This document shows, one piece after another, positions 1,421 through 16,671 of a stretch of 64,000 nt of DNA; the first letter of the stretch is position 1; the number at the start of each line of letters is the position of its first letter. The notes below the pieces were generated by a model. That model made no database searches and was not told where the DNA came from. It saw only the letters and a program-made list of their open reading frames with translations. This DNA is from Phytohabitans maris. Lineage in GTDB: Bacteria > Actinomycetota > Actinomycetes > Mycobacteriales > Micromonosporaceae. The stretch spans positions 186,001 to 250,000 of the forward strand of contig NZ_JAVHUY010000009.1 of NCBI RefSeq assembly GCF_031085175.1, written 5' to 3'. A program made the position numbers and the translations under genes.

Positions 1421-1471
1421 GTACGTCCTTGCGAGCCATCTGCCGGCTTCCCGATTCATCAGGAGGCGAAC

Positions 1472-2293
1472 GTGAGCGTGATCATCACCGTGGCTCCCAC
1501 GGGACCCATCGCGACGAAGCAGGACAACCCAATGCTGCCCACGCAGCCCGACGAGATCGCCGACCAGGTCGCGGAGGCGTACGCAGGTGGGGCCTCGGTG
1601 GCCCACCTGCACCTGCGCGACCGCGACGACCGGCCGACCGCGGACCTCGACATCGCGGCCCGCACCGTCGAGCTCATCCGGGAGCGCTGCCCCATCCTGG
1701 TGCAGCTGTCGACCGGCGTCGGCCTGACCGTGCCGTTCGAGGAGCGCGAGCGGCTCGTCGAGCTGCGCCCGGAGATGGCGACGTTGAACCCGTGCAGCAT
1801 GAGCTTCGGCGAGGGCGAGTTTCGCAACCCGCCCGCCGGCGTCCGCCGCCTCGCCGCCCGGATGCGGGAGCTCGGGGTCAAGCCGGAGCTCGAGATCTAC
1901 GACACCGGTCACCTCGACGCGTGCCTGCGGCTCCGGGACGAAGGGCTGCTGGCCGAGCCGCTCCAGTTCAGCATCGTCCTCGGCGTCCGCGGCGGCATGG
2001 CGGCGACCGCCGAAAACCTCATGACCATGGTGCGCCGGCTCCCGGCGGGCGCGGCCTGGCAGGTCATCGCCGTCGGCCGGGCCAACCTGGAGCTGACGGC
2101 GATCGGCCTGGCACTCGGTGGAAACTGCCGGGCCGGGCTGGAGGACACGCTCTACCTCCGCAAGGGGGAGCTGGCACCGGGCAGCGCACCTCTGGTCGCG
2201 CGCGCGGCTGCCCTGGCGCGCGACCTCGACCTCGCCGTCGCCGACGTCCACGGCGCCCGTCGCCAGCTCCAGCTCCCCCACCGGGAAGGGTGA
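1472..2293 (+). CDS. BKACE family (DUF849) beta-keto acid cleavage enzyme
   Basis: The protein has 273 residues, the usual size for this family of Zn-dependent TIM-barrel enzymes. They condense a beta-keto acid with acetyl-CoA to give acetoacetate and a new CoA ester. The start MSVIITVAPTGPIATKQ, the metal-binding HLHLRD (His-x-His) and the C-terminal AGLEDTLYLRKGELA match the family. GTG 1472 is preferred because AGGAGG sits at 1461-1466; an upstream in-frame ATG at 1394 would put the coding region across the likely operator. It is the first gene of a seven-gene rightward operon, five bases ahead of the aldehyde dehydrogenase. In this setting it likely trims a keto acid formed by the neighbouring dehydrogenases. 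The actual keto acid cannot be read from sequence. Confidence 0.88.
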   Translation: MSVIITVAPTGPIATKQDNPMLPTQPDEIADQVAEAYAGGASVAHLHLRDRDDRPTADLDIAARTVELIRERCPILVQLSTGVGLTVPFEERERLVELRPEMATLNPCSMSFGEGEFRNPPAGVRRLAARMRELGVKPELEIYDTGHLDACLRLRDEGLLAEPLQFSIVLGVRGGMAATAENLMTMVRRLPAGAAWQVIAVGRANLELTAIGLALGGNCRAGLEDTLYLRKGELAPGSAPLVARAAALARDLDLAVADVHGARRQLQLPHREG

Positions 2294-2298
2294 CCGCG

Positions 2299-3708
2299 AT
2301 GACCGACCAGGTCTCGATGACCATCGGCGGCAACGCCGTCGCGACGACAGCGTCGTTCGAGGTGGTCGACCCGGCCACCGGGGCACCCTTCGCCACGGCA
2401 CCCGAGTGCACGGAGGCCCAGCTGGACGAGGCGATGCGGTCAGCCCGCGACGCCTACCGGAGCTGGAAGCAGGACGAGGCCGCCAGGCGCAAGCTGCTGC
2501 TCGCGAGTGCCGACGCGGTCCTGGCCGCCACCGACACGATCGCCCCCGTGCTCACCCACGAGCAGGGGAAGCCACTCGCCGATGCCCGGATGGAGGTCCG
2601 TTCGGTAGCGCTGTGGCTCCGGCACTTCGCCGGGCTCGATGTCGACCGGGAGATCCTCCAGGACGACGACAAGGTCCACATCCGCGTCGAGCGCCGCCCC
2701 CTCGGCGTCGTGGCCGCGATCACCCCGTGGAACTACCCGCTGAGCCTCGCCGCCTGGAAGATCGCCCCCGCGCTGCGCGCCGGCAACACGATGGTGCTCA
2801 AGCCCTCGCCCTACACACCGCTCGCGACCCTCCTGCTCGGCCGGATCCTGGCCGAGGTACTGCCGGCCGGCGTCCTGAACGTGATCAGCGGCTCCGACCC
2901 GCTCGGTGCGCTCATGACCGGGCACCCCGTCCCGCGCAAGATCTCCTTCACCGGCTCGGTGGCCACCGGCAAGCACGTCGCCGCCGCGGCGGCCCCGGAC
3001 CTCAAGCGCATCACGTTGGAGCTCGGCGGCAACGACCCGGCGATCCTGCTCGACGACATCGACGTCGAAGCGGTCGCCGAACGGCTCTTCTGGTCGGCCT
3101 TCCGCAACAACGGACAGGTCTGCTCGGCGGTCAAGCGGGTCTACGCCCCCGAGCGCCGGTACGACGAGGTCGTCGAGGCGCTCGCCGCCGTCGCCCGCTC
3201 GGTGCGGGTCGGCGCCGGAACCGATCCGCGCAGCCAGCTCGGCCCCCTCAACAACAAACCCCAGCTCGATCGCGTGGCCGGACTGGTCGACGACGCGGTG
3301 AGGCGCGGGGGGCAGGCCGTCGTCGGTGGCGACCTCGTCGACGGCCCCGGCTTCTTCTACCGGCCGACGATCCTTCGAGGGGTCTCGGACGGGATGGCCG
3401 TCGTCGACGAGGAGCAGTTCGGGCCGGTGCTCCCGGTCCTCTCCTACCGATCGGTCGACGAGGTCGTGGAGCGGGCCAACGACACCCATTTCGGGCTCTC
3501 GGGCTCGGTGTGGGGCACCGACGCCGACCGCGCCGCGGCCGTGGCCGACGAGCTGGACTGCGGCACGGCGTGGGTCAACACCCACCTCGCACTCCGCCCC
3601 GACCAACCCTTCGGCGGCGCGAAGTGGAGCGGCATCGGCGTGGAGAACGGGCACTGGGGCCTGCACTCCTTCACCGAGGTGAAGGTGCTGCACCGGAGCC
3701 GCGCGTGA
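2299..3708 (+). CDS. NAD(P)-dependent aldehyde dehydrogenase
   Basis: A 469-residue member of the ALDH superfamily that oxidises an aldehyde to an acid. It has the N-terminal EVVDPATGAPFATAP strand, the cofactor-site ITPWNYPL, the base-containing LELGGNDP (Glu) and the catalytic Cys in NNGQVCSAVKR. The C-terminus PFGGAKWSGIGVENGHWGL is typical. ATG 2299 has GGAAGGG about nine bases upstream; a GTG at 2290 overlapping the previous stop is possible. The stop overlaps the next start (GTGA), so expression is likely coupled. Within the operon it would feed an acid toward the BKACE enzyme or act on an aldehyde product of ring degradation. The substrate is not predictable. Confidence 0.93.
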   Translation: MTDQVSMTIGGNAVATTASFEVVDPATGAPFATAPECTEAQLDEAMRSARDAYRSWKQDEAARRKLLLASADAVLAATDTIAPVLTHEQGKPLADARMEVRSVALWLRHFAGLDVDREILQDDDKVHIRVERRPLGVVAAITPWNYPLSLAAWKIAPALRAGNTMVLKPSPYTPLATLLLGRILAEVLPAGVLNVISGSDPLGALMTGHPVPRKISFTGSVATGKHVAAAAAPDLKRITLELGGNDPAILLDDIDVEAVAERLFWSAFRNNGQVCSAVKRVYAPERRYDEVVEALAAVARSVRVGAGTDPRSQLGPLNNKPQLDRVAGLVDDAVRRGGQAVVGGDLVDGPGFFYRPTILRGVSDGMAVVDEEQFGPVLPVLSYRSVDEVVERANDTHFGLSGSVWGTDADRAAAVADELDCGTAWVNTHLALRPDQPFGGAKWSGIGVENGHWGLHSFTEVKVLHRSRA

Positions 3709-5003
3709 TCGCACCAACGGCCGCGCCGGCGGTACGTGCCGTCGCCGGCGAGCCGCTCTCGGCCGACCAGCAGACCCGACTGCACCGCGCCATCTGGGCC
3801 GAGCGCGGTCGCCGGTTGGACGTCTCGATCACCGTCTCGCCGTGCCCGTACGACGACGCGCGCCTGGTCGAGCTGCGGCGCGCGGGCCGGGCCGTCGGCT
3901 TCCTGCCCCACGAGCTCAGCTCGCACCTCACGAGGGACCGGTTCCGGACCGTCTTCCCGGAGATGGACTCCTACGCCGAGTCGCCGGCGAACGGCTTCGT
4001 CAACACGGCGGACATCTGGGGGTGGTTCGACTACGAGACGGCTCGCGACGCGCCCTGGCCCGACCTCGACGAGCCGGCCACCCTGGCGACCGTGGCGGCC
4101 GCCGGGCGCACCATGCTCACCCTCGACCAGTACATCGTGGCCAGCCAGGACCAGCACCTGCTGACCGGCCACCACCTCGACGACCGCCGCAGCTGGTCGC
4201 GGCTGGCCACGTCGTACGACGGCCGCACCATCGCGGCACGGTTCGACGGTGACCAGCCGGAAGAGGGCCGCGAGGACGAGCCGCCCACCCCGGGCTCGCT
4301 GCTGGTCGCCTACGACCTCGCTCCCAGCGACAGCGGCCGGATGCTCGGGGTCCGCACGCGGTCCGCGACCCCACCGCTGGAGTCCCTCTGGGACGACCTG
4401 TGGACCCGGACCACCGGCGCCTACGTCCGCGCCGGGTACCCGGCCCGCCTCGGCACCAGCCCTGCCGACTACCTCGCCGGGCTCCCCCGGATCCCGCGGC
4501 AGCCTTCCACCTACGCCGGCCGGTTCGCCGTACCCCTGGTCGTCGATCCGCGCATCCCGTGGCAGGAGCAGGCGCGTCTGCTCGGGGTGCGGCTCTCGAG
4601 CCAGTCCCAGCGCTTCTCCTTCGCGGCCGTCGAACCGGCCGCCTGCCCCGACGTGCCCTACGTCGGCTGGTTCAACGCGTGGCATGCCCGCTTTCCCGGG
4701 CCCATCAGCTCGATCGACGCCCGTGCCGAGCTCGCCGACGACGAGTGCGGCGCCACGCCGATCGAGCTCCTGGCGATGAACGTGGCCCTGCCGGACCTGG
4801 TGCGGACGTCCCGCTTCTTCGAGGCGGTCGGCTTCGTGATGACCACACCCACCCCTGTCCGCTGCCTGTGCCTGTACCGCTGGCGGGGAGCACCGGAGCT
4901 CGGCGCCAACCAACACCCGATTCCCTACTCGATGTTTCGGCCCCTCGTCCGCGGGCGGGCCATCACCACCACCATCCCAGCGACGATCGAGGAACGCCGA
5001 TGA
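3705..5003 (+). CDS. Unrecognised 432-residue protein of the catabolic operon
   Basis: I do not recognise a family. The protein looks soluble: no signal peptide and no membrane helix. Noticeable stretches are an N-terminal TRLHRAIWAERGRRLDVSI, a Trp/Tyr-rich segment NTADIWGWFDYETARD near residue 105, and TLDQYIVASQDQHLLTGHHL with several His residues. The C-terminal part contains LLAMNVALPDLVRTSRFFEAVGF. The GTG start at 3705 overlaps the aldehyde dehydrogenase stop, and its own stop overlaps the next start as ATGA, so it is co-translated within the operon. That tight coupling implies a role in the same pathway, either as an enzyme with the His-rich patch or as a subunit. The reading frame is clearly real from operon geometry and amino-acid composition. 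Confidence 0.85.
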   Translation: MIAPTAAPAVRAVAGEPLSADQQTRLHRAIWAERGRRLDVSITVSPCPYDDARLVELRRAGRAVGFLPHELSSHLTRDRFRTVFPEMDSYAESPANGFVNTADIWGWFDYETARDAPWPDLDEPATLATVAAAGRTMLTLDQYIVASQDQHLLTGHHLDDRRSWSRLATSYDGRTIAARFDGDQPEEGREDEPPTPGSLLVAYDLAPSDSGRMLGVRTRSATPPLESLWDDLWTRTTGAYVRAGYPARLGTSPADYLAGLPRIPRQPSTYAGRFAVPLVVDPRIPWQEQARLLGVRLSSQSQRFSFAAVEPAACPDVPYVGWFNAWHARFPGPISSIDARAELADDECGATPIELLAMNVALPDLVRTSRFFEAVGFVMTTPTPVRCLCLYRWRGAPELGANQHPIPYSMFRPLVRGRAITTTIPATIEERR

Positions 5004-5917
5004 CCACGCACTTCATGCAGCGGGTACTCCAGGACCACATCGACGCGGGTCACGGGTCGCAGACGGTGTGGTGGGACGAGACGCGGATCCCGCTCGACAG
5101 CATCGGGAAGCGGGTCACCGACCTGTTGGACCTGCGGGGCCGGCGCGCGGTCGTCACCGGTGGGGCCGGGATCAACCTCGGGCAGGCCTGCGTAAACAGG
5201 CTGGCCGGACTGGGCGCGGACGTCGCGGTCGTCGACCTGAGCGCGGAGCAGGTACGTGAGCGCGGCTTCTCGCGGCACCCGTCCGCGCCGGACGCGGCCG
5301 GCGTCGCCGCCGCCGCGGCCGAGAAGTGGGGAACGAAGGTCGTCCCGATCCACGGCGACGTCATGGACTGGGACGGCGTCCAGACCGTCATGGCCGAGGC
5401 CGCGGCGGCGCTGGGCGGCATCGACATCCTGGTCAACAACGCGGCCGACGTCGTCGTCGGCGACTTCGTCGACTTCGGGCGCGAGGAGATCGACCGTTCC
5501 GTCCGCGGCACGCTGACCGGACCGATGTACTGCACGCGCGCGGTGCTCGACTACATGCTGCCCCAGGGGCAGGGGCGGATCATCAACATCGGCTCCGAGG
5601 CCGGGAGTTCCGCGATGCCCTGGCTGACCGTGTACGGCGCCCTGAAGGCCGGGCTCGGGCAGTTCACCCGGTTCCTCGGCAAGGAGCTCGGCCCGCGGGG
5701 GATCCAGGTCCTCGGCGTCAACGCCGGCTCGATGTGGGGCCCGGGGCGGCCACTGACCGAGGACCGTCCCGAGACGCTCTACCCGCGCGGGCGGACCGCC
5801 ATCCAGCGCTACGAGCTGCCCGAGGAGGTGGCGAACATGGTCGCGTTCCTCGCCAGTGACGCCGCCAGCGCGATGAACGGCGCCATGGTCGACATGGGCG
5901 GCGGGATGGCGGTCTGA
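5000..5917 (+). CDS. SDR-family oxidoreductase
   Basis: The protein has 305 residues, about 45 more than a minimal SDR because of an N-terminal extension carrying IDAGHGSQTVWWDETRIP. The nucleotide-binding loop reads TGGAGINLG, so the last glycine of the usual TGxxxGxG is shifted. NNAA and the catalytic YGALK (Tyr-x-x-x-Lys) with an upstream Ser (NIGSEAGSS) are present. It likely oxidises an alcohol or hydroxyacid to a carbonyl with NAD(P)+, and could supply the beta-keto acid used by the BKACE enzyme. The start overlaps the previous stop (ATGA) and the stop abuts the next GTG. Confidence 0.9.
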   Translation: MTTHFMQRVLQDHIDAGHGSQTVWWDETRIPLDSIGKRVTDLLDLRGRRAVVTGGAGINLGQACVNRLAGLGADVAVVDLSAEQVRERGFSRHPSAPDAAGVAAAAAEKWGTKVVPIHGDVMDWDGVQTVMAEAAAALGGIDILVNNAADVVVGDFVDFGREEIDRSVRGTLTGPMYCTRAVLDYMLPQGQGRIINIGSEAGSSAMPWLTVYGALKAGLGQFTRFLGKELGPRGIQVLGVNAGSMWGPGRPLTEDRPETLYPRGRTAIQRYELPEEVANMVAFLASDAASAMNGAMVDMGGGMAV

Positions 5918-6994
5918 GTGCGCATCCCTGTGACGGCCGCGACGGTGACCGGCGAGTCCGAGTCCGCACTGGCCGACGAGTTCGCCCGGCGCGGCTGGAC
6001 CGACGGGCTGCCGGTCACGGTGCCGACGGCCGAGCGGGTCAACGCCTGCCTCGCCGCGGCGGGCCGGGAGCCGGACGAGGTCCTGCTCAGCGTCGAGGAG
6101 AACCGACGTGACGTCACCGTCCGGCTGGCCGCGGTCAACGCCGTCCTGGCCGGCTGTGCCGCGGAGCAGTTCCCCGTCGTGGTGGCCGCGATCCAGGGCT
6201 GGGCCGACCCACGGTGGGGTGCGGGAGACCGGACCTTCTTCTACATGTCCAACGCGAGCACGGGCGGCGGGGCGCAGCTCACCGTCGTGAACGGACCGGT
6301 GCGTCACGCGCTCGGCATGAACAGCGGGACCAACCTCTATGGCCCGGCCGCCCACGCGAATGTGGCGATCGGGCGGGCTCTCCGGTTGGTCCTGCGCAAC
6401 GTCCTCGGTTTCCGCCCGGACACCCTGGACCAGGCGACCCAGGGCCACCCGGGCAAGCTCGGCTTCTGCCTCGCGGAGAACGAGGAGCAGTCGCCCTGGG
6501 AGCCGCTGCACGTCGAGCACGGCTTCAGCGCGGACGACAGCACCGTGATGGTGATGAGCGGGCGGGGCCCCGAGCCGATCGAAAACCGCACCGGCGCCAG
6601 CGCCGAGGGCATCCTGCACACGATCGCGGACACCCTCTCCCGGCTCGGCGCCATGGTCCCCGGTGGCCCGGTGGTCGTGGTGATGGGGCCGGAGCACGCC
6701 GACATCGTCGGCTCCAAGCACGGATGGTCGAAGCAGGAGGCCAAGCGGTTCCTCTACGAGAACTTCCGACGACCGGTCGCGGACCTGGCCAGGGCCGAGC
6801 TCAAGTTCCGGCCCGACCCGGTGCGGGACAGGACCGAGGGTGGCATCACCTACCGCTACGGGGCACGGGACCCGGGCGACATCGCGTTGATCGTGGCCGG
6901 GGGCCGCAACGCCGGCATCTCCTCGGTGATCACCAGCTGGTGCTACGCCACGCCGCCGGGCGAGTTCATCCTCGCGCCGGTCCGGATGCCCTGA
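5918..6994 (+). CDS. Unrecognised 358-residue protein paired with a UGSC-family protein
   Basis: I cannot assign a named domain. It is a soluble protein beginning at a GTG directly after the SDR stop. Conserved-looking blocks are RGWTDGLPVTVPTAERV near residue 25, FYMSNASTGGGAQLTVVNGP near 108, GMNSGTNLYGPAAHANVAIG near 130, and QGHPGKLGFCLAENEEQSPW near 175. Gly/Asn-rich loops and the Cys in GFCLAENEE suggest an active site. The C-terminal IALIVAGGRNAGISSVITSW resembles a substrate-binding strand-loop. The UGSC-family gene follows after 27 bp and a thioredoxin-reductase-like gene after that, suggesting that the three work together in a thiol-linked step. I infer that it is the substrate-handling partner. 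Confidence 0.85.
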   Translation: MRIPVTAATVTGESESALADEFARRGWTDGLPVTVPTAERVNACLAAAGREPDEVLLSVEENRRDVTVRLAAVNAVLAGCAAEQFPVVVAAIQGWADPRWGAGDRTFFYMSNASTGGGAQLTVVNGPVRHALGMNSGTNLYGPAAHANVAIGRALRLVLRNVLGFRPDTLDQATQGHPGKLGFCLAENEEQSPWEPLHVEHGFSADDSTVMVMSGRGPEPIENRTGASAEGILHTIADTLSRLGAMVPGGPVVVVMGPEHADIVGSKHGWSKQEAKRFLYENFRRPVADLARAELKFRPDPVRDRTEGGITYRYGARDPGDIALIVAGGRNAGISSVITSWCYATPPGEFILAPVRMP

Positions 6995-7021
6995 GCACAT
7001 ACCGAGAACAAGGAGGTCGCG

Positions 7022-7609
7022 ATGGCGATCGAGGCGTTGGTTCCCGTCCCGGACGATGCGGTCGCGGAGGTGCGGACGGCGGCACGGCCGACGCGCACCG
7101 AGAGGCTGGTGGTCGGCCTCCTCGCGAACACCAAGCGGAACGCGCCGGAGCTCCTGACGGCCGTCGCGGCGCTTTTGGAATCCGAGCTGCCGGGGGTCGA
7201 GTTCGTCGGCCCGGTCGTGACCGAGGGAGTGATGCTCCCGTCCGCGGCTCAGCTGGCTGACCTGGTCGACCGCTGTGACGCCGTCCTCACCGGGCTCGGT
7301 GACTGCGGATCCTGCTCGGCGACGACGATGCACGTCGCCACAGACTTCGAGGCGCGCGGCGTGCCGGCCGCGGCGATCTGCACGGAGCCGTTCCTCGCCT
7401 CGGCGTCCGCCATGGCCGCGCGCCGGGGCCTGCCGGGCTACGCCTTCGCCCGCGTCGCGCACCCGGTGTCGAGTCTTGAGCAGCACGAGATCGAGGAGCG
7501 CGCCCAGGAGGCGCTGCCGCAGGTACTGACCATCCTGGGCATCGACGCACTCCGGGCGGCAGCACGCCGCGAGGAGTTCGTGGCCGGGATCGGCGAGGTG
7601 GCCGGATGA
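7022..7609 (+). CDS. UGSC-family protein (Cys form of the selenocysteine motif)
   Basis: The protein has 195 residues. The signature is GDCGSC at 93-98 (C95, C98), followed by SATTMHVATDFE and ARGVPAAAI. In the UGSC family the first residue of the motif is often selenocysteine; here it is Cys, giving a CxxC redox pair, and the fold is probably Rossmann-like. The family's reaction is not established. An AAGGAGG at 7010-7016 supports ATG 7022. The stop overlaps the start of a thioredoxin-reductase-like flavoprotein, an obvious candidate electron donor to the C95-C98 disulfide. The family call rests on motif and length and is inferred from memory of the family. Confidence 0.75.
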   Translation: MAIEALVPVPDDAVAEVRTAARPTRTERLVVGLLANTKRNAPELLTAVAALLESELPGVEFVGPVVTEGVMLPSAAQLADLVDRCDAVLTGLGDCGSCSATTMHVATDFEARGVPAAAICTEPFLASASAMAARRGLPGYAFARVAHPVSSLEQHEIEERAQEALPQVLTILGIDALRAAARREEFVAGIGEVAG

Positions 7610-8532
7610 GCGACCCCGACGAGTACGACGTCGCTGTCGTCGGCGGTGGGCTCGCCGCCCTGTCCACCGGCCTGTTCGCCGCGGGCTTCGGCCTGCGCAC
7701 CGCCGTGGTGACCGAGATCGTGATGGGTGGCGAACTGATCAACCTCGAGGAGGTCGTGCGGTTCCCCGGGATCGCCGATCCGATCTCCGGCAGCGAGCTG
7801 GCCAGCCGGGTCGAGGCGCAGGCGCTGGAGGCCGGCGCCGAGTTCGTGTTCGACGACGTCACCGAGATCGCCAAGGAGGGCACCGGATTCGTCGTTCGCG
7901 GCCTTGCGACAGAGATCCGGTCTCGCACAGTCGTCGCGGCGATGGGGGCCGGCCGCCGGCGTCTGGGCCTGCCCGGTGAACGTGACCTGGAGGGTCGCGG
8001 CGTCTCCTACTGCGGCACCTGCGACGGCCCGCTCTTCAAGGAGAAGCCCGTCGCTGTGCGGGGAGACCACGAGTTCGCCGGTCGTGAGTCGCTGGTCGTC
8101 GCCCGCTACGCCTCGACGGTCACCTTGATCACTCGCCATGGGCAGCCCGACCTCTCCGATGCGACCAGGTCAGCCATCGACGGGAGCGACCGGATCCGCG
8201 TGCTGTCCCATGCGGAGGTGGAGGCGCTGACGGAGTCCGACGGGGTGCTGGGTGCGGTGCGGGTCCGCGACCTCGATTCCGGCGGGGTCACCGATCTCGA
8301 CGTCGCGGGACTCTTCGTCAACGCCGGCATGGAGCCGAGGTCGTCGCTGCTGCGGGGCCTGGTGGATCTCGACCCGGATGGCTCCGTGCGGGTCGACGTC
8401 GGCATGCGGACCTCCGTCGACGGGCTGCTCGCGGTGCGTGAGCTCAGGTCCGACTTCGCCGGCTACGCGGTCGCCGCCGCCGGGGACGGTGCTGCCGCCG
8501 CGGGGTCGGCACGACGCCTCGTCAGGAGCTAG
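7606..8532 (+). CDS. Thioredoxin-reductase-like flavoprotein with altered NADPH and FAD motifs
   Basis: A 308-residue TrxB-like protein. The N-terminal FAD fingerprint (VVGGGLAALSTG, residues 11-22) and the redox pair CGTC at 136-139 (YCGTCDG) are intact. The second dinucleotide fold is not standard: where TrxB has GGGxxA it reads RGDHEFAG, and the HRR NADPH-phosphate motif reads TRHG. The C-terminal AGD flavin motif is replaced by VREL. It may therefore take electrons from something other than NADPH, or bind its cofactors differently. The ATGA overlap with the UGSC-family gene argues for a dedicated redox pair. It is the last gene of the operon; an intergenic repeat element follows. Confidence 0.82.
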   Translation: MSDPDEYDVAVVGGGLAALSTGLFAAGFGLRTAVVTEIVMGGELINLEEVVRFPGIADPISGSELASRVEAQALEAGAEFVFDDVTEIAKEGTGFVVRGLATEIRSRTVVAAMGAGRRRLGLPGERDLEGRGVSYCGTCDGPLFKEKPVAVRGDHEFAGRESLVVARYASTVTLITRHGQPDLSDATRSAIDGSDRIRVLSHAEVEALTESDGVLGAVRVRDLDSGGVTDLDVAGLFVNAGMEPRSSLLRGLVDLDPDGSVRVDVGMRTSVDGLLAVRELRSDFAGYAVAAAGDGAAAAGSARRLVRS

Positions 8533-9230: not shown

Positions 9231-9998
9231 TCAGCGCCCCTCCCATCGGGGAGGCCGTTTCTCCTTGAACGCCGCGATCCCCTCCGCGACGTCCCAGGAA
9301 ACGAGCAGTCGCGCCTGGAGTTCCGCCTGGAGCCGGAGCAGCTCGTCGGTCGCCCCGTCGACCGCCGCGTTGACCAGGCGTTTGCTCGCCTGGACGGACA
9401 GCGGTGCGTTCTCCGCGATCCGCGCGGCCAGGGCCACCGCGGCCTCCTGCGCCCGTCCGGGCTCGACCAGCTCGCTGACCAGGTGAAGGTCGAACGCCTG
9501 CTCGCCCGTCAGCCGCTCGCCCGTCAGCGCCATCCGCATCGCTACGGAGTGCGGGAGCCGGGTGGGCAGGCGCAGGAGCCCTCCGGCGGAGGCGATAAGG
9601 CCCCGCGTGACCTCGGGCAGCCCGAGCTGTGTGGTTCGTGAGGCCACGATGAGGTCGCACGCGAGGGCCATCTCAAGACCGCCGCCGAGGGCGTAGCCTT
9701 CTATCGCCGCAACCAGCGGCTTGCGCGGCGGTCTCTCGGTGAGGCCGCCGAAGCCCCGCCCCGGCACCACGGGCGACTGACCGGCCGCCACGGCGCGGAG
9801 GTCGGCGCCGGTCGAAAACGCCTTCGCCCCGCCGTGCAGGACCCCGACGCGCGCGCGGTCATCCTCGTCCAGCCGGGTGAAAGCATGCGCGAGCAGCTCG
9901 GCGGTGGGCTGGTCGATGGCGTTGAGCACCTCGGGACGGTCGATCGAGATGACCAGGACGCCGTCCCGGGCCTCAAGCACGACCGTGGGGACCGTCAT
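9231..9998 (-). CDS. Enoyl-CoA hydratase/isomerase family protein
   Basis: A 255-residue crotonase-fold protein. It shows the oxyanion-hole segments FSTGADLRAV and AIEGYALGGGLEMALACDL and the catalytic-loop region LGLPEVTRGLIASAGG, which retains Glu at the first acid position. Family members hydrate, isomerise or cleave acyl-CoA esters. Its ATG at 9998 overlaps the stop of the upstream SDR (ATGA), and it is the last gene of the nine-gene leftward operon. Together with the CoA transferase and the SDR it forms a beta-oxidation-like module for a CoA-activated side chain or ring-cleavage product. Confidence 0.92.
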   Translation of the reverse strand: MTVPTVVLEARDGVLVISIDRPEVLNAIDQPTAELLAHAFTRLDEDDRARVGVLHGGAKAFSTGADLRAVAAGQSPVVPGRGFGGLTERPPRKPLVAAIEGYALGGGLEMALACDLIVASRTTQLGLPEVTRGLIASAGGLLRLPTRLPHSVAMRMALTGERLTGEQAFDLHLVSELVEPGRAQEAAVALAARIAENAPLSVQASKRLVNAAVDGATDELLRLQAELQARLLVSWDVAEGIAAFKEKRPPRWEGR

Positions 9999-10759
9999 GC
10001 CTTTGGCCCACCGGCGACGTAGAGCACCTGACCCGAGACGAACGAGGCTTCCTCGCTGACGAAGAACGACACCGCCGCGGCGATGTCCGCCGGCTGGCCC
10101 ACCCGACCGACGGGGATCTCCGCGGCGCGCATGACGGTGTACTCGTCGTACGGCATCCCGATCCGGACCGCGGTTTCCCTGGTCATCTCGGTGACGATGA
10201 ACCCGGGGGCCACGACATTGGCCGTGACGCCGAACTTGCCGAGCTCCATCGCCAGCGTCTTGGTGAACCCCTGGAGCCCGGACTTCGCCGCGGCGTAGTT
10301 GGCCTGCCCCTTCTTGCCGAGTGCGGACGTGCTGGAGAGGTTTACGATCCGTCCCCACCGGGCTCCGACCATGTACTTCTGCGCCGCCCTCGACATCAGG
10401 TAGGCGCCGCGCAGATGTACGTCGATGACGGCGTCCCACTCGTCGGGCTGGAGCTTGAACAGCAGGTTGTCGCGGACGATTCCGGCGTTGTTGACCAGCA
10501 CCGTCGGCTCTCCGAGCTCCGCGACCACGCGATCGACCGCCGCCGCGACGTCATCCTCCACCGAGACGTCCGCGCCGACGGCGAGCGCCCTGCCACCGGC
10601 GGCCTCGATCTCCTCGACGGTGGTGGCGCACGCCTCCGCGGAGAGGTCGAGGACGGCGACGGCGCAGCCATCGGCCGCCAGCCGGTTCGCTACCCCGCGG
10701 CCGATCCCCCGGGCACCTCCGGTCACGATCGCGACCGGGCTCCTGCCTTGACCGAACAC
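9995..10759 (-). CDS. FabG-type SDR (3-oxoacyl / 3-hydroxyacyl dehydrogenase-like)
   Basis: A 254-residue classical SDR with TGGARGIGRG, NNAGIV, a catalytic Ser in NLSSTSA and YAAAK. The ending VSGQVLYVAGGPKA is typical of FabG-like enzymes. I chose GTG 10759 because GAAAGGA lies upstream and the Rossmann strand starts ten residues later. It likely oxidises a 3-hydroxyacyl-CoA formed by the enoyl-CoA hydratase encoded immediately downstream, with which it overlaps by four bases. A 32-bp gap separates it from the CoA transferase gene. Confidence 0.92.
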   Translation of the reverse strand: MFGQGRSPVAIVTGGARGIGRGVANRLAADGCAVAVLDLSAEACATTVEEIEAAGGRALAVGADVSVEDDVAAAVDRVVAELGEPTVLVNNAGIVRDNLLFKLQPDEWDAVIDVHLRGAYLMSRAAQKYMVGARWGRIVNLSSTSALGKKGQANYAAAKSGLQGFTKTLAMELGKFGVTANVVAPGFIVTEMTRETAVRIGMPYDEYTVMRAAEIPVGRVGQPADIAAAVSFFVSEEASFVSGQVLYVAGGPKA

Positions 10760-10791
10760 AGTGGACCGTCCTTTCTCGACTGAGGTGACCC

Positions 10792-11937
10792 CTACGTGGT
10801 CCGCGCGAGCCACGCCCGCACGACGTCGCCGGCGTTGTCCAGCGCGGGCGGGCGGTGGCGGTACCGCGGCGGCGTCAGGGAGTAGACCGCCGGGTTCCGC
10901 ACCATCGGCACGCCCTCGACGTCCACGACGGGTTCGAGGCCGAGCCGAGTCGCCAGCTCCACCCCGCCACGCACGTCGTTGATCGGCCCGCACGGGAGCC
11001 CGGCACGGGTGAGCAGCTCGGCCCACTCGTCGGCGCCCCGGCTGGCCAGCGCGGCCGCAAGCTCCGGGCGCAGCTCGTCGCGGTGGTGGTTGCGCAGCCC
11101 CACCGTGGCGAACCGCGGGTCGGCCGCGAGGTCGCGCCGTCCGAGTACGTCGCAGAGGATCCGGAACTGGCGGTCGTTGCCCGCCACCACGATGAGCTCC
11201 CGATCGGCTGTCGGCAGCGGGCCGTACGGGAACAGGCTGGGGTGCTCGTTCCCCATGCGCTGGGGGACGACGCCGCCGGCGACGTAGGCCGAGGACTGGT
11301 TGATCATCGAGGAGAGCGCGCTCGACAGCAGGTCGATCTCGATGAGCTGCCCGCGGCCGGTCCGGCCACGGTGGTTCAACGCGGCGAGCACCGCGACGGC
11401 CGAGTGCAGACCGGTCATCACGTCGATGGCGGAGATACCGGCCCGCAGCGGGGGTCCGTCAGCCTCGCCGGTCATCGCCATCATCCCCGAGGCCGCCTGG
11501 ATGAGCAGGTCGTAGCCGGGCATCGCGGCGCCCGCGTGAGTCCCGAAACCACTGATGGCGCAGTAGACGACGCCCGGGTTGGCCGAGGCGACGTCGTCGT
11601 ACCCGAGGCCGTACCGCTCCATGCTCCCGGGCCTGAAGTTGTGGACGAAGACGTCTGCCCGGCGGGCGAGCGTGCGCGCCACCGCGAGGTCGCTCTCGTC
11701 GGCGAGGTCGAGCGCGATCGACCGCTTGTTGCGGTTCACGGCCAGGTAGTAGGTCGACTCGCCGTCCCGCACCGGCGGCACGAACGTTCTCGTGTCGTCG
11801 CCCGCCGGGCTCTCGACCTTGATCACGTCGGCGCCGAGGTCGCCGAGCAGCATGGTGCAGTAGGGGCCGGCGACGATGCGGGAGAAGTCCGCGACGACGA
11901 GCCCCGACAGCGGCCCGTCGCCCGACACGTCAGCCAT
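10792..11937 (-). CDS. CaiB/BaiF family (class III) CoA transferase
   Basis: The protein has 381 residues. The N-terminal DFSRIVAGPYCTMLLGDLGA and VIKVESPAGDD are characteristic, and the catalytic Asp lies in MPGYDLLIQAASG. Class III transferases move CoA between carboxylic acids without ATP. In this operon it would activate a carboxylic acid released by ring cleavage or by Baeyer-Villiger oxidation, so that the adjacent hydratase and dehydrogenase can process it. The start codon lies within the last eight bases of the monooxygenase gene. Confidence 0.93.
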   Translation of the reverse strand: MADVSGDGPLSGLVVADFSRIVAGPYCTMLLGDLGADVIKVESPAGDDTRTFVPPVRDGESTYYLAVNRNKRSIALDLADESDLAVARTLARRADVFVHNFRPGSMERYGLGYDDVASANPGVVYCAISGFGTHAGAAMPGYDLLIQAASGMMAMTGEADGPPLRAGISAIDVMTGLHSAVAVLAALNHRGRTGRGQLIEIDLLSSALSSMINQSSAYVAGGVVPQRMGNEHPSLFPYGPLPTADRELIVVAGNDRQFRILCDVLGRRDLAADPRFATVGLRNHHRDELRPELAAALASRGADEWAELLTRAGLPCGPINDVRGGVELATRLGLEPVVDVEGVPMVRNPAVYSLTPPRYRHRPPALDNAGDVVRAWLARTT

Positions 11938-13711
11938 TCCCGGTCGGCTCGAAGGTCAGCCCCTGCCACGAGCCTTCGGCCCGCCAGGCGCTGATGAGGT
12001 GGTCGAAGGCGACGATCCCGGGCCCGTACGCCCCGTTGCGCCGCGAGATGGTCGCGTTGGGCTGTCCTTCGTTGTTGTAGTAGCCCGGGGTGCACGACTC
12101 GAGGAACTCGAGGTTGGCGCGCGAGGACTCGAAGACGGTCTGGACCCAGGCCTCCTCGTCCGCCACCACCACGTCGACCGCGCGGGCACCCCGCCGGTCG
12201 ACCTCGTGGATGACCTGGCTGACGTGCCGGCTCTGGACGTCGAGCACGTGGGCGAAGTTCGAGCTGACGCCCACCTGGTTGAGCGCGACGATGAAGAAGT
12301 TCGGGAAGCCGCTGGTCTGCATCCCGTAGAGCGTCGAGATCCCGGTGGAGAACTTCTCGCTCAGCTTGCGACCGCCCCGGCCGACCACGTCGTAGCCGAG
12401 CCTGCTCGCGAACGGCGCCCCTACCTGAAAGCCGCTGGCGAAAACGAGGCAGTCGACGTCGTACTCGGTGCCGTTGACCACGATCCCGGTCGGGGTGACC
12501 CGCTCGATCCCCCGGCCGTCGGTGTCGAGCAGGGTGACGTTCGGCCGGTTGAAGGTCTCCAGGTACTCGTCGTTGAAGCACGGCCGCTTGCAGAGGGCCC
12601 GGTACCACGGCTTCAACCCCTCGGCCGTGGCCGGGTCGCGCACGATGTCGACCACCCGAGCGCGGATCTCCTCCATCTTGGCGAAGTCGTCGAGCTCGTC
12701 GAGCACACCGCCGCTCAGCGTCCGGAGCCGGTAGATGGCGGTCCAGCCGTCGTTGACCAGGTCGGTCTCCGCGTCGCCGCCGGCCACGAACGTCGAGAAG
12801 TTGTCCATCCGCTCGCGCTGCCATCCGTGCCGGAGCGAGGCGAACCACGCCGGGTCGGTCGGCCGGTTGTCGCGCGCGTTGACCGCCGACGGCGTGCGCT
12901 GGACGACGTACAGGTGTCCGGCGCTGGCGCCCAGGTGGGGTACCGCCTGGACGGCGGTCGCCCCGGTCCCCACGATCGCGACGCTCTTGTCCGCGAGCCC
13001 GTCGAGCCGACCGTTGCTGTCGCCTCCGGTGTAGCCGTAGTCCCAGCGGGTCGTGTGGAACGTGTGGCCGCGGTAGGACTCGATGCCGGGCACGCCCGGC
13101 AGCTTCGGCTTCTGCATCGCGCCGGCCGTCATGCAGACGTAGCGGGCGGTGAACACATCGCCGCGGTCGGTCTCGACCGTCCAGAGTCCGGTCTCCTCGC
13201 GCCACGTGACACCCGAGACCCGGGTCTGGAGCAGCGCGCCGTCGTAGAGGCGGTAGTGCCGGGCGATCCGCCGGCAGTGTTCGAGGATCTCGGGTGCCTT
13301 CACGTACTTCTCGCTGGGCATGTAGCCCGTCTCCTCCAGCAGCGGGAGGTAGATGTAGGCCTCGGTGTCGCACGCGGCGCCCGGGTAGCGGTTCCAGTAC
13401 CACGTGCCGCCGAAGTCACCGCCCTGCTCGACGAGCCGGATGTCGTCGTAGCCCAGGTCGCGCAGGCGCGCGCCGAGGAGAAGCCCGCCGAACCCCCCGC
13501 CGACGACCACGACGTCGACGTGGTCGGCGACCGGCTGGCGCTCGATCCTCGGCGTGTACGGGTCGTCGATGAAGTGCGCGAGCTCGCCTTCGAGGGCCTG
13601 GTACTGGCGCGAGCCGTCCGCGCGCAGCCGCTTGTCCCGCTCGATCCGGTACTTCTCGCGCAGCGCGTCGGGGTGGAACCCGAGTGCCCGCTTGTCTGCC
13701 TGCACTGTCAC
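11930..13711 (-). CDS. FAD-dependent Baeyer-Villiger-type monooxygenase
   Basis: A 593-residue flavoprotein with two dinucleotide-binding motifs, VVVVGGGFGGLLLGARL (about 68-84) and VAIVGTGATAVQAVP (about 245). Between them is the BVMO fingerprint, here YRGHTFHTTRWDYG (family FxGxxxHTxxW). DFGGTWYWNRYPGAACD follows the first motif as usual. It would insert oxygen next to a ketone using NADPH and O2, giving an ester or lactone. The alpha/beta hydrolase gene just upstream could cleave that ester. The start at 13711 overlaps the hydrolase stop. A ketone in the pathway is thus implied. Confidence 0.93.
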   Translation of the reverse strand: MTVQADKRALGFHPDALREKYRIERDKRLRADGSRQYQALEGELAHFIDDPYTPRIERQPVADHVDVVVVGGGFGGLLLGARLRDLGYDDIRLVEQGGDFGGTWYWNRYPGAACDTEAYIYLPLLEETGYMPSEKYVKAPEILEHCRRIARHYRLYDGALLQTRVSGVTWREETGLWTVETDRGDVFTARYVCMTAGAMQKPKLPGVPGIESYRGHTFHTTRWDYGYTGGDSNGRLDGLADKSVAIVGTGATAVQAVPHLGASAGHLYVVQRTPSAVNARDNRPTDPAWFASLRHGWQRERMDNFSTFVAGGDAETDLVNDGWTAIYRLRTLSGGVLDELDDFAKMEEIRARVVDIVRDPATAEGLKPWYRALCKRPCFNDEYLETFNRPNVTLLDTDGRGIERVTPTGIVVNGTEYDVDCLVFASGFQVGAPFASRLGYDVVGRGGRKLSEKFSTGISTLYGMQTSGFPNFFIVALNQVGVSSNFAHVLDVQSRHVSQVIHEVDRRGARAVDVVVADEEAWVQTVFESSRANLEFLESCTPGYYNNEGQPNATISRRNGAYGPGIVAFDHLISAWRAEGSWQGLTFEPTGNG

Positions 13712-14631
13712 CTGACGTCTCCTGGGAGGGCTGTCGCCCGGGCCGCGTTGCGACGGACCGCTGCGATGATCTGGGGCCAGGCCTCGGGCACGATCCCGTG
13801 GCCCATGCCGTCGACGACTTCGAGCCAGGCGCCCGGTACGGCGTCCGCGGTCGCCTGGCCACCACTGACGTCGACCAGGCGGTCGTCGCTCCCGTGGACG
13901 GCGACGGTCGGCACGCGCAGGCCGCGGAGCGCGGGCGTCCGGTCCGCCGAGGCGATGGCGGCCGCCTGCTGCCGGAGCCGGCCGGCCGGGTCGTGTGCGC
14001 GGTCGTAGGCCGCGGCCGCACGGGTCCGCGCCGCCTCCTCGTCGAACGGGAAGCCGCTCCCGGCCAGCGCGCGCGAGCGTTCCACAGCCGCCTCGACGAC
14101 TCCCGCACGCGTGGCGGGAGCGGGTCGGCGCATCAGCTCCATGATGGCCGGGTCCGCCTGGCCGACCGACGGGTCGCCGGTGCTCGACATGATCGAGCAG
14201 AGGGAGAGCATCCGCTCCGGCCAGTGGATCGCCACGAGCTGCGCGACCATGCCTCCCATCGACGCGCCGAGGATGTGGGCGCGATCGATGCCCAGCGCGT
14301 CGAGAAGTCCGACGCTGTCGGCCGCCATGTCGTCGAGGGTGTAGGGCAGGGTGCGGAGGTCGCCGTCTCGGATCGCGGTGAGGTCAGGGACTCCTTCGAG
14401 ACGCTGGGACAGCCCGACGTCGCGGTTGTCGAAGCGGATCACGAAGAAGCCCGAGTCGACCAGGTCGTCGCGGAAGCTCACGTCCCAGCCGTCCAGCTGG
14501 GTGCCGATGCCCATGATCATGAGGAGCGGCGGGTCCGCCGGGTCGCCGTACGTGGCGCAGCACAGGCTGATCCCGTTCGCGGTGACCGACCGCGTGACCT
14601 CCGCTCGCAGGTCGTGGCGGGTCGATCCCAC
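13708..14631 (-). CDS. Alpha/beta hydrolase
   Basis: The protein has 307 residues, with the nucleophile elbow GASMGGMVAQ, an acidic residue in VHGSDDRLVD and the His in GMGHGIVPE. The oxyanion region is LLMIMGIGTQLDGW. GAGGAGG just upstream supports the GTG at 14631. Its stop overlaps the start of the Baeyer-Villiger monooxygenase gene, a common pairing in which the hydrolase opens the ester made by the monooxygenase. It is less like the meta-cleavage product hydrolases than the protein encoded at 20177, so the two hydrolases probably have different jobs. Confidence 0.92.
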   Translation of the reverse strand: MGSTRHDLRAEVTRSVTANGISLCCATYGDPADPPLLMIMGIGTQLDGWDVSFRDDLVDSGFFVIRFDNRDVGLSQRLEGVPDLTAIRDGDLRTLPYTLDDMAADSVGLLDALGIDRAHILGASMGGMVAQLVAIHWPERMLSLCSIMSSTGDPSVGQADPAIMELMRRPAPATRAGVVEAAVERSRALAGSGFPFDEEAARTRAAAAYDRAHDPAGRLRQQAAAIASADRTPALRGLRVPTVAVHGSDDRLVDVSGGQATADAVPGAWLEVVDGMGHGIVPEAWPQIIAAVRRNAARATALPGDVR

Positions 14632-14715
14632 CGGGCCTCCTCGTCTTCGCGGCCGCCGGAGAGTGCCGGCCGGCGGCTGGCGCGCTCGTTCGGGTCTGTC
14701 ACTCGTTCGGGTCGG

Positions 14716-15264
14716 TCAGAAGAAGTTGCTGAGGTTCTGCGACAGCAGGATGGTCTGGTCGAGGTAGATGTGGCGCCGGGCGATCCGAAACCCTTCCTCG
14801 GTACGGCGAAGTACGTCCTCGCGACGTCCGATCCACTCGTCGATCTCCGACTTCAGCCGGGTCCGGTAGAGGTGGAAGCAGGTCTCGACGGTCAGCTCGG
14901 TGCCCGAGTCCTCGACGATGCGGACATTCGTCACGAGGTGGCGGGTCCGGGACGGCGGGTCCTCTGCCCAGGCGGTCCCGGTCCCCAGCTTCTGCACCCG
15001 GCCGACGAGCGTCGCCTTGTCGTCGTCGAAGAACGCCATCTCGCCGGGCCGCGTGAACTCCCGGGAGAGGTTGCGGCGCGGAACGGTCCGACGGATCGGC
15101 ATGAAGTACGCCGTGTCGTCGGTGAACAGGTCGACCCACTCCTCGAATCTCAGGTGGTCCAGCAGGGCGGCCTCGTGGGTGTAGAACCGCTCGACCTCGT
15201 ACTGCAGGTACATCGCCGCGATCTTCTCCGGCGCGATCGCCGTCTCCAGGCGCATGGTTTCCAT
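14716..15264 (-). CDS. Aromatic-ring-hydroxylating dioxygenase, beta (small) subunit
   Basis: A 182-residue SnoaL/NTF2-like subunit, with VERFYTHEAALLDHLRFEEW at the N-terminus, DDTAYFMPIRRT, and a C-terminal RRHIYLDQTILLSQNLSNFF. It has no metal site of its own and packs with alpha subunits in an (alpha-beta)3 enzyme. Thirteen bases separate it from the alpha-subunit gene. A Met at codon 4 is an alternative start. The extended C-terminal tail ending in Phe-Phe is as in biphenyl, toluene or cumate-type beta subunits. Confidence 0.93.
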   Translation of the reverse strand: METMRLETAIAPEKIAAMYLQYEVERFYTHEAALLDHLRFEEWVDLFTDDTAYFMPIRRTVPRRNLSREFTRPGEMAFFDDDKATLVGRVQKLGTGTAWAEDPPSRTRHLVTNVRIVEDSGTELTVETCFHLYRTRLKSEIDEWIGRREDVLRRTEEGFRIARRHIYLDQTILLSQNLSNFF

Positions 15265-15277
15265 GGCTCGTCAGTCC

Positions 15278-16642
15278 TCAGATGTGGTCGCCGGGCGTGG
15301 TGGAGGAACGCAGCTCGTCCCAGCCGGTGCCCTTGACCCACTCGAGCCAGGACAGGTAGGTCCACAGCTGCGCGTACTCGTTGACGGGCGCCTCGATGCG
15401 GGCGACACCGTCCTCGTGGATGATCTTGCCGCGGCCGAGCCCCATCTTGAGGAGCTGCGGGATGTCCCGGCTGGCGCCGCCGCGGGTCTGCATCGTGCTC
15501 TGCGACCAGTTCTCGCCGTCCTCCTGCTCCAGGAAGCCCGCCGGGCCGAACGAGTGGATCTGGCGACCGAGCTGGGCCCTCTGCTCCTCGGGCGACTCGT
15601 TGCGGTCCCGGAAGCTGAACCACCACACCTCGGTGACGCCCGCGCTGCGCGGGACCCGAAGGCTGATCTGCGAGTCCATCGTGAACCAGGCGGTCGGGAA
15701 GAGGTGCGGGTGGCCGGCGAACCGTGACCCGACCGGGCCGAGGAACGCGAGCGGACCGGGGTTCTGACGCCAGGTCACGAGCTCGTGCATCTCGGTCGGG
15801 AGGGTTTTCAGTATCGAGTCGAGGCTCGGGCCGGAGATCGCGTGTCCGTACTCTCCGAGCGCGACCAGGGTGTCCAGGTCGGTGGGGAGCCGCTGCACGC
15901 CGAGGCTCTTGCCCTCGTCGGTCTTGGCGCCTCCGGTGTCGGTCGCGTCGGCACTGGGGATCATCCCGACGGCCTGCGCGGAGATGTGGGTGATCTGCGG
16001 GTGGTAGTAGTCGAAGGCGTTGTCCACGGCGAACTTCCAGTTGCAGTTGAGCGTGAACTTCTGGACGCCCGGACGGGCCTCGATGTCACCCCGCTCGGCC
16101 AGCAGGTCGATGCCGATCCGGCCCGTGCGCCCGAGGAACTCCAGCAGCGGCGGGGCCTGCGGGTCCATGGTCGCGAAGATGAACCCCTTGTAGTTGTCGA
16201 GCTGGGCCACCTTGCGCAAGGGATGCTTCGTCTTGTCCAGGTCGTCGTGGTAGAAGTCCGACATCCCGGGTACGCCGACGAGTTCGCCGTCCAGGCCGAA
16301 CGTCCAGCCGTGGTAAGTGCACATGAAGTTCCTGACGTTGCCCTCCTCGGCCCGGCAGACCGCGTTGCCGCGGTGTGTGCAGGTGTTGAGCAGAGCCTTG
16401 ATGCCGCCGTCGCGCTGGCGGACCACGAGCACGTTGTCCTTGCCCATGGGCGCCTCGAAGAAGTCGCCCTTCTTCGGGATCTGCGTCTCGTGGCACAGAA
16501 AGAGCCAGGCCCGCCCGAAGATGTGCTTCATCTCCAGCTCGAAGATCTCCTCGTCGCTGAAGATCCGGCGGTCCAGCTCCCCGGTCGCCACGTTGACGAG
16601 CGACTCGAGGTAGGCGGTGGTTCCGGGCGCCGCGGTGGTCAT
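15278..16642 (-). CDS. Aromatic-ring-hydroxylating dioxygenase, Rieske alpha subunit
   Basis: The protein has 454 residues. The Rieske [2Fe-2S] ligands are C88-T-H90 and C108-T-Y-H111. The mononuclear iron site is DNAFDYYHPQITH, with H214 and H219 and the bridging Asp at 207. It performs cis-dihydroxylation of an aromatic ring with O2, fed by the ferredoxin and reductase encoded from 18.58 kb. I chose ATG 16642 because GAGGGGAG sits just upstream; an in-frame ATG at 16675 would add eleven residues of low quality. Ring specificity cannot be told by eye. The size and partner set suggest the biphenyl/cumate/phenylpropionate branch. Confidence 0.95.
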   Translation of the reverse strand: MTTAAPGTTAYLESLVNVATGELDRRIFSDEEIFELEMKHIFGRAWLFLCHETQIPKKGDFFEAPMGKDNVLVVRQRDGGIKALLNTCTHRGNAVCRAEEGNVRNFMCTYHGWTFGLDGELVGVPGMSDFYHDDLDKTKHPLRKVAQLDNYKGFIFATMDPQAPPLLEFLGRTGRIGIDLLAERGDIEARPGVQKFTLNCNWKFAVDNAFDYYHPQITHISAQAVGMIPSADATDTGGAKTDEGKSLGVQRLPTDLDTLVALGEYGHAISGPSLDSILKTLPTEMHELVTWRQNPGPLAFLGPVGSRFAGHPHLFPTAWFTMDSQISLRVPRSAGVTEVWWFSFRDRNESPEEQRAQLGRQIHSFGPAGFLEQEDGENWSQSTMQTRGGASRDIPQLLKMGLGRGKIIHEDGVARIEAPVNEYAQLWTYLSWLEWVKGTGWDELRSSTTPGDHI

Positions 16643-16671
16643 GTCAGTTCTCCCCTCGTTGCTGAGGAAGG

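Follow-up and report, generated by a model that had tools for sequence, protein, structure and literature searches.

The locus

The window analysed here is a stretch of 64,000 nt from Phytohabitans maris (contig NZ_JAVHUY010000009.1, positions 186,001-250,000, forward strand), and positions are counted from its first letter. The subject is a three-gene module at 5918-8532, which ends a plus-strand run of seven genes. In order, the run encodes a beta-keto acid cleavage enzyme (BKACE), an aldehyde dehydrogenase, a 428-aa protein, an SDR oxidoreductase, a 358-aa protein (H358), a UGSC family protein, and a flavoprotein resembling thioredoxin reductase (TrxR) (Table 1). An original prediction, made from the sequence alone, had described the last three genes as adjacent and coupled, and this description holds. 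H358 starts with GTG immediately after the SDR stop codon, AAGGAGG lies ahead of the UGSC ATG, and the flavoprotein ATG overlaps the UGSC stop codon (ATGA).

All seven genes are found in the same order in Streptomyces dioscori (L002) and S. canus (L004); in Amycolatopsis sp. GM8 (L003), the last three genes are kept and SDR genes lie close by. The ratio of nonsynonymous to synonymous substitution rates (dN/dS, NG86 method) against these three loci was 0.17-0.20 for H358, 0.12-0.21 for UGSC, and approximately 0.28 for the flavoprotein. The three genes are under purifying selection. The last value rules out decay of the flavoprotein gene to a pseudogene.

H358 and UGSC occur as a pair

H358 is a near-obligate partner of UGSC. 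Profiles of both families were run over 101 stretches (1.6 Mb), comprising the first 20 kb of the window, contig and plasmid loci, and stretches of further genomes, several of them closely related. Among 100 UGSC matches in 98 stretches, 96 had a same-strand H358 match no more than 600 bp away, with fusions counted. The other four lay near contig ends (L005, L116, L118) or had H358 5.9 kb away (L192). Five H358 matches lacked a same-strand UGSC within 1.5 kb, namely L081, the second H358 of L107, L129 (cut), L192, and L196 (partial). Because the stretches were gathered by UGSC searches and by H358 searches, the pairing is not the product of one search direction alone. Gene order varied, with either H358 or UGSC first, and L008, L010, L037, L046, L048, and L078 carried both in a single open frame, UGSC being N-terminal. 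The co-occurrence that the original prediction suggested checking thus holds for H358 and UGSC, whose homologues do not usually lie apart; the flavoprotein proved optional, as detailed below. On the haloarchaeal plasmids L075, L076, L079, and L083, the order was H358-UGSC-H358, with H358 paralogues on both sides of one UGSC.

The genome of P. maris holds a single match each for H358 and UGSC. UGSC was detected in 2 of the 6 genomes searched within the genus and in 27 of 396 within the phylum; for H358, the count was 23 of 394 within the class. Outside Actinomycetota, coverage was uneven and drew on plasmid records and one contig scan with a single query sequence. In the search for viral copies, 58 stretches for H358 and 10 for UGSC fitted a pattern, and none was confirmed.

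H358 had been called unrecognised, and the window protein indeed has no Pfam or NCBIfam match. Among 26 members, no Pfam family was common at E up to 1, and no credible PDB match was obtained for H358. One qualification applies: passages of a 2008 report (PMC2398784) describe a fusion of UGSC with a conserved domain, Unknown_1, which is presumably H358. Over 89 rows, D29, G126, R153, and E187 of H358 are invariant; C80 is Cys in 82 rows and Ala in 7.

UGSC is distantly related to the catalytic domain of GrdB and PrdB

The assignment of the second protein as the Cys form of UGSC, with C95-G-S-C98 in place of the selenocysteine (Sec) motif, was borne out by matches to PF24696 (162.6 bits, cut-off 25) and NF041046 (129.9 bits, cut-off 125). 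C95 and C98 are each Cys in 80 of 81 non-redundant UGSC rows when Sec is counted as Cys.

The GrdB/PrdB motif was the lead for comparing UGSC with GRDB (PF07355). The profile of the 81 UGSC rows matched 18 GRDB C-domains with a probability of 95.6% (E 1.3e-8), and 11 short GRDB-like proteins alone with 90.7%. When all Cys were masked, the probabilities were 93.7% (E 1.9e-7) against the 18, 87.7% against the 11 short proteins, and 69.1% against 7 full-length GRDB. Three reversed and five unrelated control comparisons gave E-values of 0.017-0.33, all of these E-values referring to single pairwise comparisons. Independently, among 23 UGSC members, the NCBIfam families most often matched after UGSC_fam were gly_red_sel_B (10 members, best E 8e-4), PrdB (6, 0.0012), and GrdF (5, 0.066); various_sel_PB (2) and GrdH (1) were also matched. 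By these profile comparisons, UGSC is homologous, as a distant relative, to the catalytic Sec domain of GrdB/PrdB. Passages of PMC2398784, PMC13188914, PMC9312934, and PMC5330540 contain no statement of such homology. Owing to this kinship, UGSC is likely to carry out substrate chemistry beyond mere redox.

The GrdB motif is given as U-x-x-C-x-x-C in part of PMC13188914. The corresponding C/U-x-x-C-x-x-C spacing is present in 28 of the 81 UGSC rows; the window protein reads CGSCSAT, without the third Cys, and the 11 short GRDB-like proteins have U-x-x-C. Since these motif sequences are already inside the scored profiles, the motif counts leave the odds of homology unchanged. The 11 short proteins are actinobacterial (L059-L069) and mostly carry U-P-x-C, and their Pfam match covers the C-terminal part of GRDB. 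Searches of solved structures gave no credible match for UGSC; one GRDB core, searched likewise, had no match at E 0.01.

The TrxR-like flavoprotein has altered motifs

Residues 8-305 of the flavoprotein align with the TrxR chain 2a87_A (E 1.1e-48). The protein thus shares whole-length homology with the low-molecular-weight NADPH thioredoxin reductases (TIGR01292), as well as the CxxC (here CGTC) and the first FAD glycine motif, but its TIGR01292 score (224.7 bits) is under the cut-off of 343.45 and it has no GGGxxA, HRRxxxR, or AGD. The original prediction that CGTC is kept while the NADPH and FAD motifs are altered was therefore right in substance, and the exact register of its RGDHEF, TRHG, and VREL had to be corrected. 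Against 2a87, GGGDSA corresponds to G153-D-H-E-F-A158, and the R of RGDHEF takes the place of the hydrophobic residue ahead of this motif. HRRxxxR corresponds to T176-R177-H178 with D182 for the last Arg (TRHxxxD), and AGD to V277-R278-E279. The orthologues in L002-L004 read GDHDFA or GDDDFA in the NADPH loop and have likewise lost the GD of AGD. L002 and L004 retain TRR; hence, the second Arg has not been lost throughout the clade.

In the tree, the canonical TrxR formed a clade (support 99/97), and the non-canonical TrxR-like proteins were placed outside it. Monophyly of the latter was not shown, the branch that sets them apart having 59/90 support. Six rows with a G-[DS]-[DH] core were not recovered as a clade, yet such a clade was not rejected (approximately unbiased test, p 0.308), and five of the rows are long branches. 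TrxR-family enzymes with an altered nucleotide-binding region and electron sources other than NAD(P)H (DvTRi, Mj-DFTR, and GvDTR) are described in part of PMC5627308. The flavoprotein of the window resembles them, and the DFTR/FFTR type, in its altered NADPH motifs; it differs in being tied to UGSC-H358 and in a loop, G-[DS]-[DH]-[DE]-[FW]-[AT], that its clade shares with L082 and L170.

TrxR-like genes near the pair

A TrxR-like gene was present in 21 of the 98 UGSC stretches, distributed over Actinomycetota, Pseudomonadota, and Halobacteria. Approximately 0.8 would be expected in 1.6 Mb at the density of the P. maris genome, where another query and threshold gave 5 matches in 9.87 Mb, and the 21 loci are not independent. 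TrxR-like neighbours are thus in excess. Eight of the 21 (L041, L044, L047, L079, L083, L189, L191, L192) have canonical NADPH motifs, and four of these (L079, L189, L191, L192) lie on the opposite strand. The other 13 do not have the full motif set: the window, L002-L004, L082, L170, L078, L120, L045, L084, and L132-L134. AGD is retained with GSDEWA in Haloterrigena (L082), with GDDDWT in genome G753 (L170), and with GGGDSA in Neorhizobium (L084, L132-L134), where HRG or HHG is found at the 2'-phosphate site. Ten of the 13 are immediate co-directional neighbours of the pair; in L078 and L120 one gene intervenes, and in L045 the distance exceeds 5 kb. The orders trxB-trxA-H358-UGSC and H358-UGSC-trxB were found in an Arthrobacter and a Roseovarius locus, respectively, and in Variovorax SRS16 trxB lies two genes upstream of the pair.

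In the flavoprotein search of 394 genomes of the class, with at most 5 candidates scored in each, E 1e-55 was passed by P. maris and G430 only; the protein of G430 is canonical in its motifs, and its stretch lacks UGSC. In Neorhizobium galegae VafX2 (L084, 7353-9948), the H358 and TrxR-like matches are each split over two frames; those of L132-L134 are single.

A proposed two-subunit reductase

The thiol arrangement similar to that of GrdB/PrdB, the fixed partner, and the trxB/trxA genes in some loci lead us to infer a carbon-heteroatom-cleaving reductase. On balance we favour, with moderate confidence, the reading that H358 and UGSC form a two-subunit reductase working like the GrdB/PrdB part of the known enzymes, with its disulfide re-reduced by a TrxR-type flavoprotein. 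The view of the original prediction that the three proteins form one electron-transfer system is partly supported, and is sharpened by the GrdB/PrdB kinship of UGSC. H358 would hold a small organic substrate. The C95 thiolate of UGSC (a selenolate in many relatives) would attack this substrate and break a carbon-heteroatom bond, and C98 would resolve the resulting thioether or selenoether, leaving a C95-C98 disulfide. The disulfide would be re-reduced by a TrxR-type flavoprotein, which in some relatives may be a canonical NADPH-TrxR, at one locus together with TrxA. In the window, the dedicated TrxR-like protein would re-reduce the pair and might be fed by NADH, F420H2, or ferredoxin. F420 is a possible donor because the P. 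maris genome encodes CofD above its cut-off.

Comparable steps have been put forward for D-proline reductase. In the proposal set out in part of PMC3091704, the Sec of PrdB attacks the alpha carbon of a pyruvoyl-held substrate, a Cys cleaves the selenoether, and an exchange reaction re-reduces the pair. For glycine reduction, passages of PMC3091704 and PMC10298544 give the electron route as NADPH to TrxR to thioredoxin (Trx) to GrdA. The pair shares with PrdB/GrdB (PF07355, TIGR01917, TIGR04483) a homologous Sec/Cys catalytic domain and a second subunit in the locus, and would share with glycine reduction a Trx/TrxR-type reductant. It differs in having H358 in place of the pyruvoyl partner of the PF09338 type. 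UGSC-H358 probably works like GrdB/PrdB, although by its partner and by the family score cut-off it falls outside the glycine and proline reductases themselves.

The pair also differs from PrdB/GrdB in occurring in organisms such as Streptomyces and haloarchaea, which are presumably aerobic. A broader version, which we regard as possible but doubtful, is that the pair belongs to the glycine/D-proline reductase superfamily as a branch without pyruvoyl, present across Actinomycetota, Pseudomonadota, and haloarchaea and often placed among catabolic genes, and that the lineage of the window captured a dedicated TrxR-like flavoprotein no longer fed by NADPH (F420H2 or another donor serving instead). 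With a link to GrdB/PrdB, a named partner, and a candidate reductant, an orphan selenoprotein family would become an assayable enzyme, and chemistry of amino-acid-fermenting anaerobes would extend to organisms such as Streptomyces.

Several results weigh against the reductase reading, in addition to those taken up with the alternatives below. On the UGSC side, hhalign of 23 UGSC rows against GRDB members gave probabilities of 41-57%, the 81-row profile against the 7 full-length GRDB alone gave a weaker 80.0%, and the alignment spans 69 columns. The seven full-length GRDB read U-G-T-G, with no Cys three residues on. None of the 23 UGSC members matched GRDB in Pfam, and NCBIfam also returned unrelated families for them (DddY, 2 members; argininosuccinate lyase, 1, E 0.0013). 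The window UGSC itself reaches E 0.073 with gly_red_sel_B (12 bits, cut-off 602). On the H358 side, the role proposed draws on guilt by association; structure prediction from four rows was unusable (pLDDT 35), and the H358 profile compared with six PF09338 proteins gave a probability of 0.1% (E 0.64).

The place of H358 was compared with that of PF09338 (GrdE/PrdA), which adjoins actinobacterial GRDB on the same contig in 6 of 8 genomes (G145, G105, G108, G129, G097, G111). G140 carries two PF09338 pieces, a short one next to GRDB and a longer one on a different contig; in G104, where the GRDB match is partial, no PF09338 was found. H358 occupies the corresponding position beside UGSC. A relationship of H358 to PF09338 or GRDB was considered and rejected, as profile comparisons gave no signal. 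Substrate activation must therefore differ from that of the pyruvoyl systems.

Alternative explanations

The alternative that fares best accepts the pair as a real enzyme, has it served by the general Trx system, and lets the flavoprotein act elsewhere in the pathway. In 77 of the 98 loci, no TrxR-like gene lies within the stretch examined, a canonical TrxB that could serve the pair is encoded on another contig of the P. maris genome, and both the FAD and the NADPH motifs of the flavoprotein are changed. However, non-canonical TrxR-like genes adjoin the pair in Actinomycetes, Neorhizobium, and Haloterrigena, and the window gene overlaps the UGSC stop codon and is under selection. We consider this alternative unlikely.

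A somewhat less likely view is that UGSC is a general thiol oxidoreductase of the Trx or peroxidase type, with H358 as its target or chaperone and no cleavage of a substrate. The C-x-x-C pair is compatible with it, and in published passages UGSC is described as a redox protein, uncharacterised, whose fold is likely that of Trx. For the window UGSC, the AlphaFold model (five rows, mean pLDDT 81) points to a different fold, doubly wound and flavodoxin-like alpha/beta, in which C95 directly follows strand 87-93 and helix 96-111 has C98 in its first turn. The Foldseek matches of this model were weak (one with E <0.001) and fell on TIR, flavodoxin-like, and further alpha/beta domains, and no thioredoxin was among the 50 matches listed; a Trx fold is thus not supported by the model. 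In addition, the nearest families are GrdB/PrdB, and many neighbours in named records are catabolic. UGSC as seen here agrees with the published family (PF24696/NF041046; PMC2398784, in part) in membership, CGSC motif, and fusion with Unknown_1, and departs from that picture in its near-constant partner, its flavodoxin-like model, and its kinship to GrdB/PrdB.

That the pair is a lyase or isomerase, its thiols serving as base or nucleophile with no net reduction, is improbable: 80 of the 81 rows keep Sec/Cys at the two positions, and Trx/TrxR genes are among the neighbours. In favour of this view, the fused relatives L037, L046, and L048 carry MGTS for CGSC, without redox residues, and in the last two of these loci, genes for aconitase X and DUF126 are close by. 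On account of these relatives, the UGSC-H358 scaffold may perform non-redox chemistry in some loci.

Selenocysteine forms and gene neighbourhoods of the pair

The P. maris genome encodes a SelB-like protein above its cut-off; hence, the Cys form in the window is not obviously forced by absence of Sec insertion. In G753, the UGSC genes (L170, 10239-10676, minus strand; L174, 9609-10064, plus strand) have an in-frame TAG at the Sec position. The same genome has a gene above the Rfam tRNA-Sec cut-off, for which ARAGORN reads a CUA anticodon and gives the label tRNA-Pyl. UAG-encoded Sec in UGSC proteins of Geodermatophilaceae is reported in part of PMC5330540. Beside the L170 copy lie two H358 genes and one TrxR-like gene of the non-canonical kind.

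Neighbours of the pair in named records include CoA transferases, SDRs, enoyl-CoA hydratases, acyl-CoA dehydrogenases, LysR regulators, and TTT, TRAP, and ABC transporters. Open-frame clustering over approximately 70 stretches gave enoyl-CoA hydratase 18 times, CoA-transferase III 17 times, and acyl-CoA dehydrogenase 13 times. These catabolic neighbours point to small organic acids as the substrate class. Against a tight link to one pathway, the neighbours that recur in a group of six or seven stretches with selenoproteins look housekeeping-like (SufB-like, HhH-GPD). Phosphosulfolactate synthase is annotated near the pair in Arthrobacter (L041, 5656-6444) and Natrinema (L077, 5443-5910), a possible hint at a sulfur-containing substrate.

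Other features of the window

Table 1. Features of the seven-gene run, in window coordinates
Feature	Position	Strand	Basis or remark
H358 (358 aa), UGSC partner, proposed substrate subunit	5918..6994	+	Adjoins or is fused to UGSC in relatives
UGSC family protein, Cys form, putative GrdB/PrdB-like catalytic subunit	7022..7609	+	PF24696 1.2e-47; NF041046; distant GRDB homology
C95-G-S-C98 motif (U-G-S-C in selenoprotein relatives)	7304..7315	+	Alignment
Non-canonical TrxR-like flavoprotein, proposed electron donor to UGSC	7606..8532	+	TIGR01292 below cut-off; 2a87_A; outside canonical TrxR clade
C136-G-T-C139 redox disulfide of the flavoprotein	8011..8022	+	
GDHEFA replacing GGGDSA, NADPH loop of the flavoprotein	8062..8079	+	
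TRH replacing HRR, 2'-phosphate site of the flavoprotein	8131..8139	+	
VREL replacing AGDL, FAD site of the flavoprotein	8434..8445	+	
BKACE	1469..2293	+	PF05853 E 7e-91; start uncertain
Aldehyde dehydrogenase	2299..3708	+	ALDH models, best E 2e-130, under that model's cut-off
Protein of ~428 aa, family not recognised	3714..5003	+	Start uncertain; 83% identity in L002 and L004
SDR oxidoreductase, N-terminal extension	5000..5917	+	PF13561 E 2e-41; stops just before H358

BKACE lies upstream of the three-gene module in L002 and L004 as in the window. The SDR relatives near the module in L002-L004 share 91-95% identity with the window SDR. The 428-aa protein had no Pfam or NCBIfam match, and tblastn against the plasmid collection gave no match. 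Between 1000 and 9300, consensus scanning detected no promoter-like site; the four terminator-like sites that it returned all lie on the minus strand. On the minus strand at 9231-16675, a catabolic run encodes enoyl-CoA hydratase, SDR, CaiB-type CoA-transferase, and alpha/beta hydrolase, together with a flavoprotein matching the PtlE (pentalenolactone D synthase) model and 3-phenylpropionate-dioxygenase-like subunits.

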